Assembly (NCBI RefSeq): GCF_900187045.1
Contig: NZ_LT906453.1
Location: forward strand, 1,488,001-1,552,000
Direction: 5' to 3'
Length of the DNA stretch: 64,000 bases
Source of the DNA: Dermatophilus congolensis
GTDB taxonomy: Bacteria > Actinomycetota > Actinomycetes > Actinomycetales > Dermatophilaceae
Shown here: positions 30,422 to 36,061 of the stretch, piece after piece
Layout: each line of letters opens with the position of its first letter
Position numbering within the stretch: position 1 is the stretch's first letter
Notes under the pieces: model-generated
Databases searched by the model: none
What the model was told of the DNA's origin: nothing
Seen by the model: only the letters and a program-made list of their open reading frames with translations
Translations under genes and position numbers: made by a program

Positions 30422-30794
30422 GGGGGTGATCGGTTTCGACGTCGATAGTTCGGCCAGGGGAAGCGGGCCGAGGATGCAGGGTTATCTCGTTAACGCTCCC
30501 TGTAAACCAATAGGTGCCGATTCCAAGCGCACCGACTTCGCCCTCGCCGCCTGAGCGAGCGCATAAAGAAGTCCGTCAGCCTAGGTTTGATTCCGGCCTA
30601 GTTCCTGGCGTCATCTAGGAATCTTGCTGCATTGTCATGTCGGGGGGCATTGCGGGACTTTTACTCGACTGGGCCTGTGTTCGGGAACGTGTGCGTGCGT
30701 GCCCGAAGGCTGAGAAACACCTAAGCGCACTGCGCCCGGAGAAGTCCTGGTCTTTCATCGGCGGACGCGGGTTCGATTCCCGCCACCTCCACCA
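30422..30794 (+). ncRNA. ssrA: Transfer-messenger RNA (tmRNA)
   Basis: 373 nt. The 5' end GGGGGTGATCGGTTTCGAC and the 3' end GGTTCGATTCCCGCCACCTCCACCA form the tRNA-like acceptor (7 bp, one G-U) and T-arm. The tag reading frame (30516-30554) begins at GCC and encodes ADSKRTDFALAA followed by TGA; the hydrophobic ALAA end is the usual ClpXP/ClpAP degradation signal. The encoded CCA is present. It rescues ribosomes stalled on broken mRNA together with SmpB. A strong terminator follows at 30826. Confidence 0.97.
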
Positions 30795-31465: not shown

Positions 31466-33165
31466 GTGAGTCGTGCAGACCGTGATTGCTTATGCAGGTG
31501 GGGGCTCTCTGCGGAGCGTGTGCAGCAGGGGTTGCTTCGGGTGGAGCGAGCCTACGAGAGGAGGTGGGGTGTTCGACCTAAGCCGCGTGCGCGTCACTGT
31601 GCAACGTGCGGGCTAGTTGAGTGGTCGCGCTGCCCGTCGACGTTCCGTTGGCCCGCATGGGTGCTGCAAGGGTCGCAGGCTGTGGCCTCGGTAGGCACCC
31701 CATTGGGTGTTGAGCGCATCACTCAGAAGGCGCCTGTAGATGCGGCGATCGAGGTGGCGCGGGTTCTGCGCAGTTCTCCTCGCAGGATTTTGGATCTAAC
31801 TCCTCCGTTCGTCCTCGGATGCATCGATGCTGACGCCGACCGGCTGGACCTTTTTACAGACGCGCTTGGGTGTCGGGCGGCTATTTGAGGTGCGCACTGA
31901 GTGGGGATGGGTGTGGAGTAACGGGCCTGTTGCGGCCATCAAGTTCGCTGGGTTGCCGCTGGTGCCAGACCCGCTCGGTTGGTCGCAGATGGCAGTAGCG
32001 GATGAACTCTTTGGCGAGGTAACCCCGTTAAGAGGAGTCCGGGCCGTTGGGCCAGCGACGCGGGTGAGTTGGCGGCGCTCACGTCTGACAGTTCACAGCT
32101 TGGACACCGTATCGAGTCAGCTCTGGCATGAAGGGGAGCTGGATGACCTGGTGGAGGAGGCAGCCGCGGACCTGAAGGGCGCAGTGGCCTCTATAGGTCG
32201 CTGGTTTGATGGCGCCCCGACGGTGGACTTGAGCGGCGGGCGGGACTCCCGTCTGGTCGCGGCTGCGTTCCTCGTTAGCGGAACGGCTATCACGCTTCAC
32301 AGCCACGATGCCGTCCCGGGAGACCTCGTTATTGCCAAGGAGTTAGTTGGGCTCTTGGGGCGAGAAGTCGAACACCGCATCAAGCACACGGAGTCTGGGG
32401 GTACTGGAGCTGTTCAGATGCCCTCTGGAATGGATGCTGCCTATGCCTGGCATGCATACGCCGAAGGGCTGCGCCCTTCATCGTTCTTGCTCCATCGCCC
32501 CCCGAACTCTGGATGCTGAGACCAACGTCGTCGTCGGTGGTGTTGGCGGAGAAGCAGCGCACTCCTATTACGGACCCCTCGGGAGAGTGGGCGAGCCCCA
32601 AGGGTTGCAAAGTGACCTCCTGAGAGGAATCGAACGCGCATCCCAAGAGGAGGATTTGCTGAAGGCGTGCGCTGATCGGATTGTCCGGCGTCACTGCACT
32701 GGCGAGGCAGTCGTGGATCGTTATCGACAAGACGTGTTCATGCACGTTCTGTCAGTTCTTTGGAGGATCAGCCGTTCAGGTGTCCCCAGCTCGGCTGTTC
32801 TGGATCATTACTACGTGCTCGAGCGGATGCGCAGGTGGGGCACAATGGGCGAAAGGAATGGTGTTTGTTCGCCCTTGCTGACGCCCAGTTTTCAACGAGC
32901 AGCTCTCGCTCTTGCCCCTGGGCAACGCCGTGCAAATATGCTCCATCGCAGGCTTACTGAACGACTGGTCCCTGAGTGGAATGGGGTCCCTTTTTCCCCG
33001 GCGAAGTTCCGCACACTTCCCCGCGGCGCGGCGCTCTCACGTAGCGAAGGCGGTCGCAGCGAGCAGACTATGGAGGTATTGCCGGACCACGCGGTTCGGC
33101 CGAATGCTTCGGAGGGTGTTTTTCGCCTGATCATTCGGGTACGGGCATCGTCTTCTTTGGGATAG
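31466..33165 (+). pseudogene. Asparagine-synthase-like protein, broken by two frameshifts
   Basis: Three overlapping frames together make one protein of about 565 residues. Frame 1 (31466-31888) gives an N-terminal amidotransferase-like fold without a catalytic Cys1, up to ADADRLDLFTDALG. After an indel between 31851 and 31870, frame 2 (to 32519) continues VGRLFEVRTEWGWVWSN and carries the PP-loop VDLSGGRDSRLVAAAFL of the AMP-forming synthase domain. A second indel in the C6 run at 32498-32503 leads to frame 3 (to 33165), LDAETNVVVGGVGGEAAHSYYG. Such stand-alone proteins form amides or macrolactams (asparagine, lasso or beta-lactam pathways). No partner genes were seen. Composition differs from the surroundings. 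Confidence 0.75.
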
Positions 33166-33709
33166 AGTTGGTCACGGATGCCTGTGTTTGTGCAGGAACG
33201 ATCCGTGTGTCATGTAGTTGCTGACTCCGTATGTGCGTGTGTGCATGGGATGTGGAACATGGCGGACGGTATCGGGAAGAAGTAGGCCAGCAGCACATAC
33301 GCGGCGGTCCTTTGTGACTGCTGCACTGAGTGGCCTGTCCAGAGATTTCTCGGTTGCCGAGGAATTGGTGTTGTCCGGTTCGTTATGGGTACGGGCGATA
33401 GCCACAGACAGGCAATAACGGCCCGCTTGACAGGTTGCTCACCTGAGTCAGCCGGCCGAACAGCATCCGTTCTGCACGCAAACGCAATGTTGTGTCGTGC
33501 ATACCAGCAGTCGTTCACATGCGCGGACTCCTCGAGCACGTTGCGTCCACGTCCCCGAAGACTGCTCATGAGATCGGTCCGACGAGGGGCCGAGCACGCG
33601 ACGATGTGACGCGTGCATGTGAAAACGACGTAATGGCTCGTTCTCGACAGCGCATTCGATGTGTGCCCGGGTGAACGCGCCTGCCCGAGAACGAGAAGCG
33701 AGAGAGCAG
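33166..33709. other. Gene-free stretch with possible gene remains
   Basis: About 540 bases before the helicase. Short open frames (for example 33218-33418 and 33178-33285) have no ribosome-binding site and no recognised family. Composition is less strand-skewed than its neighbours and continues that of the broken asparagine-synthase-like gene, so it may be a degraded part of the same acquired segment. No tRNA-like repeat or integrase remnant was found. Confidence 0.45.
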
Positions 33710-36061
33710 ATGCCAGACTTTCAGCAGGAAACCAACTCCGACAGCGGTACTTCTAGCCGTTCTGAACGCCACTCCGGCCCTAAACAGCGCTGGAGCCCAG
33801 CCCGCAAGGCGCAAGCCCGTAAAGCAAAAGAAAAACCGTTAAGCCCGCGTGAGCAGCGCCGAGCAGCCGAGTTCGGCAAAGACCGTCGTGATGGTGACCG
33901 CGGTGGGTTCCGTGGTGGCAGGGACTTCCGTGATGGCGACCGCGGTGGCTTCCGTGGTGAGCGCGGCGGCTACCAGGGCGGTCGTGGCTTTGACCGGCCT
34001 GGTCGTTTCGATGAGGACCGCCGTGATGAGCGTCGCGGGGACCGTGATGACCGTGGCGGATTCCGAGGGAACCGTCGGGACTTCCGTGATGGCGACCGGG
34101 GCGGGTTCCGTGGTGAGCGCGGTTTTGACCGTGGCGAGCGGGGCGGTTATCGCGGTGATCGGGACAACCGTCGTGATGGTGACCGCGGTGGGTTCCGTGG
34201 TGGCAGGGACTTCCGTGATGGCGACCGCGGTGGCTTCCGTGGTGAGCGCGGCGGCTACCAGGGCGGTCGTGGCTTTGACCGGCCTGGTCGTTTCGATGAG
34301 GACCGCCGTGATGAGCGTCGCGGGGACCGTGATGACCGTGGCGGATTCCGAGGGAACCGTCGGGACTTCCGTGATGGCGACCGGGGCGGGTTCCGTGGTG
34401 AGCGCGGTTTTGACCGTGGCGAGCGGGGCGGTTATCGCGGTGATCGGGACAACCGTCGTGATGGTGACCGCGGTGGCTTCCGTGGTGAGCGCGGCTTCGA
34501 CCGCGACAACCACCGCGAAGAGCGCGGCAGCTACCGTCGCAACGACGAACACAAGCACCACGAAAAACGCGAATTCCGTGGACGTGACGAGCAACGCCAC
34601 ACCCACAGCGGCTCCGACTTCGCTCGGGACAAACACCGCCGCCCCCGCTCATACGACCCAGCCCGCATAGAAGAAGCCCCCCGCGAATACGAAGCCGAAC
34701 GGATGCGCCGCGCCGAACGGCCCCGCCGCGTGGAGATCCCCGAAGACCCAAACCAGGGCTTCCAAGGCCTAGGCGTGCCGATGCCCATCGTTGAGCGCCT
34801 CGCCCGGGATGGAATCGCTGAACCATTCCCCATCCAAACCGCCACCATTCCCGACGCCATCGCTGGCCGTGACGTTCTAGGTCGCGGGCGCACCGGCTCG
34901 GGAAAAACAATGGCATTCGGGATTCCCGTACTGACCCGCCTGGCAGGACGCAGCAGCGAACCTCGCTGCCCGCGCGCCGTGATCCTTTCGCCCACGCGCG
35001 AACTTGCGATGCAAATCGGGGACGCTATCGGCCCGCTCGCTAAAGAGATGAACCTGCGTCACAAACTCGTCGCTGGCGGCATGCCCTACGAACCTCAAAT
35101 CAACGCCCTCGAGCGCGGCGTAGACATCCTGGTGGCCACCCCCGGTCGTATCAACGACCTCGTCGAGCGCGGCGCCGCCTGTCTAGACAACGTGGAAATT
35201 TTCGTCCTTGACGAAGCAGATCTGATGGCCGACATGGGATTCCTCCCCGACATCACCACCCTGCTCGAGGCAATCCCCGAAACCGGTCAGCGTCTGTTGT
35301 TCTCCGCAACCCTCGACAAAGGTATCGACGACGTCGTCGAAAAATACCTCCACGACCCGGTCGTGCACTCCACCGACGAAGCAAAAGCCTCCGTCGCGAC
35401 GATGTCACACCACATCTTCCTCGTGGACCCCAAGTACAAGAAACCCATCACTGGTGACATCGCTAACCGTCCAGGCCGCACCGTGGTGTTCGTCCGCACC
35501 AAGCTCGGCGCCGACCGTGTTGCCATGCAGCTACGTGAGCAAGGCGTGTTCGCAGCTGCCCTGCACGGTGGCCTCAACCAAGGCATGCGAACCCGCATTC
35601 TGGCCGCCTTCAAAGACGGCACCCTCCCAGTGCTAGTCGCTACCGATGTCGCATCCCGTGGTATCCACGTCGATGACGTCTCAGCAGTGCTGCAGGTCGA
35701 CCCACCCCGTGACCACAAGGACTACCTACACCGCGCAGGCCGCACCGCACGCGCCGGCTCCAACGGTGTTGTTGTCACCCTGGCGTTGCCGCACCAGCGC
35801 AAACTGATGAAGCGCATCGCCAACGACGCTGGCCTTGAGGTAGAACCGCAGAAAGTCGACCTCGGTCACCGTGAAATCATCGAAACCACAGGTGCATCAC
35901 GCCCCAGCGGTGAACCGATTTCCGAAGAATGCCTCCGCGCCATCACCGACCCGCCCCGCCGCCCCCGCGGCGGCTTCAAAGGCGGACGCGGCGGCTTCAA
36001 AGGTGGTCGCGGACACGGCCGCGGCGGACACGACCGTCCCCGTCGCCGCTACGAGGACTGA
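33710..36061 (+). CDS. DEAD-box RNA helicase with Arg-Gly-rich N-terminal extension
   Basis: 783 residues. Residues about 55-320 are low complexity, rich in Arg, Gly, Asp and Phe (RGGFRG and RDGDRGG type), encoded by an exact 285-bp tandem repeat. The helicase core follows: Q motif (FPIQTATIPD), motif I GRTGSGKT (near 393), SPTREL, DEAD (near 500), SAT, then domain 2 with TDVASRGIH and HRAGRTARAG. The short C-terminal tail is again RGG-like. It unwinds short RNA duplexes, probably in cold adaptation, ribosome assembly or RNA decay. Most bacterial relatives carry RGG-type extensions at the C-terminus. ATG 33710 is chosen; the Shine-Dalgarno is weak. Confidence 0.93.
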   Translation: MPDFQQETNSDSGTSSRSERHSGPKQRWSPARKAQARKAKEKPLSPREQRRAAEFGKDRRDGDRGGFRGGRDFRDGDRGGFRGERGGYQGGRGFDRPGRFDEDRRDERRGDRDDRGGFRGNRRDFRDGDRGGFRGERGFDRGERGGYRGDRDNRRDGDRGGFRGGRDFRDGDRGGFRGERGGYQGGRGFDRPGRFDEDRRDERRGDRDDRGGFRGNRRDFRDGDRGGFRGERGFDRGERGGYRGDRDNRRDGDRGGFRGERGFDRDNHREERGSYRRNDEHKHHEKREFRGRDEQRHTHSGSDFARDKHRRPRSYDPARIEEAPREYEAERMRRAERPRRVEIPEDPNQGFQGLGVPMPIVERLARDGIAEPFPIQTATIPDAIAGRDVLGRGRTGSGKTMAFGIPVLTRLAGRSSEPRCPRAVILSPTRELAMQIGDAIGPLAKEMNLRHKLVAGGMPYEPQINALERGVDILVATPGRINDLVERGAACLDNVEIFVLDEADLMADMGFLPDITTLLEAIPETGQRLLFSATLDKGIDDVVEKYLHDPVVHSTDEAKASVATMSHHIFLVDPKYKKPITGDIANRPGRTVVFVRTKLGADRVAMQLREQGVFAAALHGGLNQGMRTRILAAFKDGTLPVLVATDVASRGIHVDDVSAVLQVDPPRDHKDYLHRAGRTARAGSNGVVVTLALPHQRKLMKRIANDAGLEVEPQKVDLGHREIIETTGASRPSGEPISEECLRAITDPPRRPRGGFKGGRGGFKGGRGHGRGGHDRPRRRYED
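33882..34451 (+). repeat. Exact 285-bp tandem duplication inside the helicase gene
   Basis: Unit 1 is 33882-34166 and unit 2 is 34167-34451. Reading them side by side I found no difference. Each encodes 95 residues in frame. A third partial copy begins at 34452 and matches for about 25 bases before diverging. Confidence 0.92.

Follow-up and report, generated by a model that had tools for sequence, protein, structure and literature searches.

A recently duplicated or homogenized, in-frame tandem repeat in the predicted disordered tail of a Dermatophilus DEAD-box RNA helicase

A DEAD-box RNA helicase gene of Dermatophilus congolensis, an actinomycete that lives on skin, carries, within its coding sequence, two copies of a 285-bp unit side by side, and we asked how these copies arose, how recently, and whether selection maintains the protein segment that they encode. 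The gene lies in the 64-kb stretch of DNA that was analysed as a whole (the window), and the features of the locus are listed in Table 1. The encoded protein consists of an N-terminal tail rich in arginine, glycine and aspartate, a helicase core and a short C-terminal RGG tail. Its open reading frame matched the Pfam families DEAD (1.8e-43) and Helicase_C (7.6e-25), both past the cut-offs, and motifs I (TGSGKT), II (DEAD), III (SAT) and VI (HRAGRTAR) were found in invariant columns, which places the protein in the DEAD-box superfamily 2. The equivalogs RhlE, CshA, DeaD, DbpA and SrmB were rejected, all NCBIfam scores lying far under the cut-offs (CshA, the best, 314.6 bits against 646; RhlE 302 against 743; DbpA 301 against 524). 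The sole other match to the helicase gene in the genome was a second helicase core elsewhere. Because relatives begin, with MPE, MSE or MPK, shortly before a K-K-x-R-W-[ST] motif, translation likely starts at the ATG given in Table 1. In family members whose N-terminus is intact, the extended motif K-K-x-R-W-[ST]-x-x-x-K nearly always precedes the tail; it is possibly a docking motif.

Table 1 Features of the helicase locus (positions in the window)
Feature	Position	Strand	Evidence and remarks
tmRNA gene	30422–30794		Rfam RF00023; adjoins minus-strand thioredoxin gene
DEAD-box RNA helicase gene	33710–36061	+	783 aa from the likely start ATG 33710; longest ORF 33659–36061
N-terminal motif K-x-x-R-W-[ST]-x-x-x-K (here PKQRWSPARKAQARK)	33776–33826	+	Kept in relatives; predicted short helix
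Copy 1 of exact 285-bp unit	33882–34166	+	Repeat search, TRF; codon phase 33884–34168
Copy 2 of exact 285-bp unit	34167–34451	+	Repeat search, TRF; codon phase 34169–34453
Partial third copy	34452–34487	+	25 bp exact, then mismatch; TRF extends to 34487
Helicase core (DEAD and Helicase_C) with DEAD, SAT and HRAGRTAR motifs	34760–35900	+	Pfam, translation, alignment
C-terminal 21-bp tandem repeat coding RGGFKGG-type repeats	35966–36012	+	TRF; translation

The repeat search found the two 285-nt copies to be adjacent and 100% identical, and TRF reported an array at 33882–34487 with a period of 285, 2.1 copies and a score of 1205; no other array in the window had a unit longer than 21 bp. The exact self-match at offset 285 measured 310 bp and reached 25 bp into the partial third copy. 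Not one codon differed between the two 95-codon copies in the helicase reading frame. The initial annotation had claimed an exact 285-bp tandem duplication that doubles a 95-residue Arg/Gly/Asp module in frame, and both parts of that claim were borne out. Each 95-residue unit contains 29 R, 28 G, 18 D, 9 F, 5 E and 2 Y, with 7 RGG and 15 RG motifs, and is itself made up of older, diverged sub-repeats of ~40 bp, so that the repeat is hierarchical. A chance origin is excluded, because the longest exact match in 60 codon shuffles of the array region did not exceed 15 bp. No further copies of the 285-bp unit were found in the rest of the genome (2,627,820 bp, single contig). Two long alternative frames cross the array, a minus-strand open frame at 33780–34916 (378 aa) and another forward frame at 33849–34670 (273 aa); they arise because the GC-rich repeat has a length divisible by three.

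The age of the copies was assessed against a sister species. Dermatophilus is now split into the genomic species D. congolensis and D. congolensis_A, with an average nucleotide identity (ANI) below 95% (PMC13402898), and the ANI between Dermatophilus genomic species has been given as ~94.6% (PMC8267673). We compared one genome per species. In the sister genome (G001, locus L004) the helicase gene occupies the same place between the same flanks, with synteny between ~33.1 and 37.6 kb of the window, and its array repeats a 243-bp unit three times without any difference (exact run of 495 bp at offset 243, ~738 bp in total); this shorter unit is the 285-bp unit less 42 bp. The copy number is therefore two (285 bp) in the window and three (243 bp) in the sister. 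The units did not differ at all within either species, whereas 13 nucleotide differences per 243 bp were counted between the species over the common 81 codons, all of them synonymous and none changing an amino acid, as in intragenic repeats under concerted evolution. At four-fold sites, 36 of 259 (13.9%) differed between the species in the final 420 codons of the helicase, against 0 of 57 between the two copies of the window. Were the copies older than the species split, the probability of no four-fold difference would be ~2e-4 for the window and ~4e-7 for the three copies of the sister; their origin or last homogenization therefore postdates the split. These data agree with the earlier suggestion of a recent duplication or ongoing homogenization, and we regard the sequence facts on the array, its recency included, as near certain. 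They suggest separate duplication or homogenization of the tail in the two Dermatophilus lineages.

Two histories could have led to this state. An array of at least two units may have existed before the split, with gene conversion or unequal crossing-over homogenizing it repeatedly, or the duplications may have been independent; to the ancestral array we assign a chance only just short of even. The arrays stand at the same place and in the same phase in both species. In the sister, the first junction is 12 bases and the last 24 bases longer than the inner ones, and these extra bases resemble parts of the longer unit and look like its remnants, which mildly favours an old array with homogenized inner units. 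However, independent duplication of one ancestral unit bearing the same direct repeats would give an equal pattern. The core pattern of the unit was absent from the other fetched loci, including that of a Dermatophilus MAG used as outgroup (G002/L005), so that the outgroup provides no polarization. With the unit common to only two close genomes, expansion from one ancestral unit and a homogenized old array both appear to fit.

In both species, direct repeats of ~25–40 bp (CGTCGTGATGGTGACCGxGGTGGxTTCCGTGGTG) flank and separate the units. These short repeats, including the one in the partial third copy, could be sufficient to seed unequal recombination or slippage, and we propose that the array would grow, shrink and homogenize through recombination or replication slippage between them. 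Every length change seen in the array (285, 243, 42, 12 and 24 bp) kept the reading frame. A MutS-type mismatch repair protein is absent from the genome and NucS is present, as expected in actinobacteria.

We scanned 30 orthologue loci: that of the window, two further Dermatophilus loci, 26 loci of the same family that belong to other genera, and a single locus of the same order from a different family; some of these loci end early at contig edges. An R/D(/G)-rich, repeat-built tail follows the KKxRW motif in nearly all family orthologues with an intact N-terminus, and in 26 of the 30 loci the longest exact self-repeat exceeded that of each of 60 codon shuffles, the periods spanning 15–315 bp. 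The repeat period and unit change from genus to genus while the helicase core is conserved, and in exact repeat length the window and its sister lie at the extreme of the 30 loci. The tails of relatives are mostly of RDD/RRD type, not RGG, and measure about 170–480 residues where complete. Outside the family, the N-terminus of the orthologue (L032) is short and free of repeats. In the tail at locus L019 (genome G016), many near-exact copies of the 13-residue RRDDRTSERRPFE were observed, with a 39-bp period and an exact run of 140 bp. Two within-genus comparisons in other genera showed a like tail style with diverged units, at distances too great for a homogenization test. Over the long term, the composition and position of the tail are retained and the units replaced.

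Over the short term, the amino-acid sequence itself appears to be constrained. The common 81 codons hold ~61.7 synonymous and 181.3 non-synonymous sites, and the probability that all 13 changes would be synonymous without constraint is ~2e-8 if they are counted as separate fixations, which is an assumption, since homogenization spreads or erases changes jointly. Because 13 synonymous and no non-synonymous changes are very unlikely in an unconstrained sequence, the module is, on this evidence and with that assumption, under purifying selection. The conservation bears on an alternative to which we give appreciable weight, somewhat below even, namely that the array is a neutral by-product of GC-rich, low-complexity direct repeats that slip and recombine, with no functional effect of unit number and with the frame kept since frameshifts would destroy the helicase. 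The complete replacement of units between genera over a conserved core fits such neutrality, as do the widely differing tail lengths tolerated in relatives, and the short direct repeats alone suffice for expansion with no need of selection. However, the amino acids of the unit stayed unchanged between the species despite the 13 synonymous changes, so the sequence is not drifting freely, and nearly all family members retain an R/D-rich composition. Both kinds of conservation are silent on copy number itself.

As to what selection would act on, AlphaFold gave pLDDT values of about 28–36 over the array and up to ~90 in the core, from a weak model built on only 7 sequences, which suggests that the tail is disordered. 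The RGG and RG motifs are clustered within this predicted disordered region, as in RGG/RG-motif proteins. The unit has 29 R against 23 D and E, and the tail is thus of mixed charge, unlike a classical RGG box. Our search of the genome for a PRMT5-type arginine methyltransferase, the only type sought, gave no match, and eukaryote-like methylation of this type was rejected as a candidate. The likeness to RGG repeats of eukaryotic RNA-binding proteins drawn in the initial annotation therefore holds in part: an N-terminal, R/G-rich, predicted disordered tail is joined to a DEAD-box core, but its charge is mixed, its relatives are of RDD/RRD type and the corresponding enzyme was not found. RGG boxes that bind RNA more typically consist of arginine and glycine than of so acid-rich a sequence, which counts against the RNA-binding reading.

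DeaD, RhlE and SrmB share condensates in E. coli, where DEAD-box proteins mark RNA condensates (PMC12758526), and Caulobacter RhlE joins the RNase E degradosome (PMC5472812). Because of these precedents, our best guess is that the tail may serve as a multivalent RNA-tethering and self-association element, and this role is the weak step of the whole explanation. By the same analogy, tuning of RNA binding or condensates by the array is plausible. We thus favour, as reasonably probable, the view that the locus holds an in-frame recombining array in a disordered helicase tail that is selected as a tether for RNA and self-association. Under this explanation, the tail would act as a low-specificity, multivalent tether that binds RNA and associates with itself, and for this reason selection would keep its composition and, in the short term, also its exact sequence of amino acids. 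The tether would keep the helicase at RNA or at precursors of the ribosome and may bring it into RNA–protein condensates, and the copy number would chiefly determine the length and valence of the tail. We consider it unlikely that the tail works as a heritable knob, in which exact-unit recombination shifts the module number from strain to strain and thereby alters RNA affinity or condensates, with homogenization keeping the modules functional. An assembly artefact that hides a copy number other than two is very improbable: assemblers do err at exact repeats and the number was judged from the assembly, but the genome was assembled as a single contig, short reads normally collapse a 310-bp exact repeat rather than create one, and the sister genome independently carries a homogenized array with its own unit.

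Several observations concern the neighbourhood of the gene. Between the two species, the 545 bp that precede the helicase gene (33114–33658) show 16 substitutions and one gap (96.9% identity), in contrast to the 13.9% four-fold difference within the gene. The segment 33260–33720 folds better than its shuffles (z −3.05) and had no Rfam match; the upstream region is possibly a long, conserved 5' leader with a regulatory role for the helicase. Further upstream, 31466–33165 contains overlapping open reading frames in different frames (31827–32519 and 32347–33165), one of them with the stretch LSGGRDSRL, which recalls asparagine-synthase-like proteins. The frames in this segment had no Pfam match, and it looks like a broken gene. 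Apart from a short 92-bp piece, the alignment with the sister species ends near 33.1 kb.

The array is a clean new case of a known phenomenon, an intragenic tandem repeat in a disordered tail, and among the papers searched we found none that deals with an N-terminal RGG tail in DEAD-box helicases of actinobacteria. It provides a natural experiment in which one module is present in two and in three exact copies in sister species, with the protein constant while the DNA drifts, and, across the family, the tail of each genus is rebuilt from its own repeat of like composition. From the copies in the sister species and the turnover of tails in the family, what a disordered helicase tail conserves, be it length, composition or exact sequence, is therefore directly testable.

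Among known systems, the bacterial helicases RhlE, DeaD/CsdA, SrmB and CshA share the same core and have basic or disordered tails outside it; unlike theirs, the long tail in Dermatophilus is N-terminal, rich in R, G and D, and built of exact tandem units. RGG-type tails occur on the eukaryotic DEAD-box proteins LAF-1/DDX3 and Vasa/DDX4. The Dermatophilus core matches the structures of DDX17, DDX42, Vasa and DDX3X by sequence, and the architecture of an N-terminal, R/G-rich tail, here predicted to be disordered, on a DEAD-box core is likewise shared. In contrast to those proteins, the Dermatophilus helicase is bacterial, its tail is of mixed-charge R/D rather than RGG/FG type, and its genome gave no PRMT5-type enzyme. 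Like the bacterial intragenic variable-number tandem repeats (VNTRs) that undergo concerted evolution, the array has in-frame units, likeness within species, diverged edge units and a variable number, here between sister species (two against three, one genome each). The coding tandem repeats described in bacteria are mostly in surface proteins; unlike most of these, the Dermatophilus array lies in the tail of an intracellular RNA helicase.
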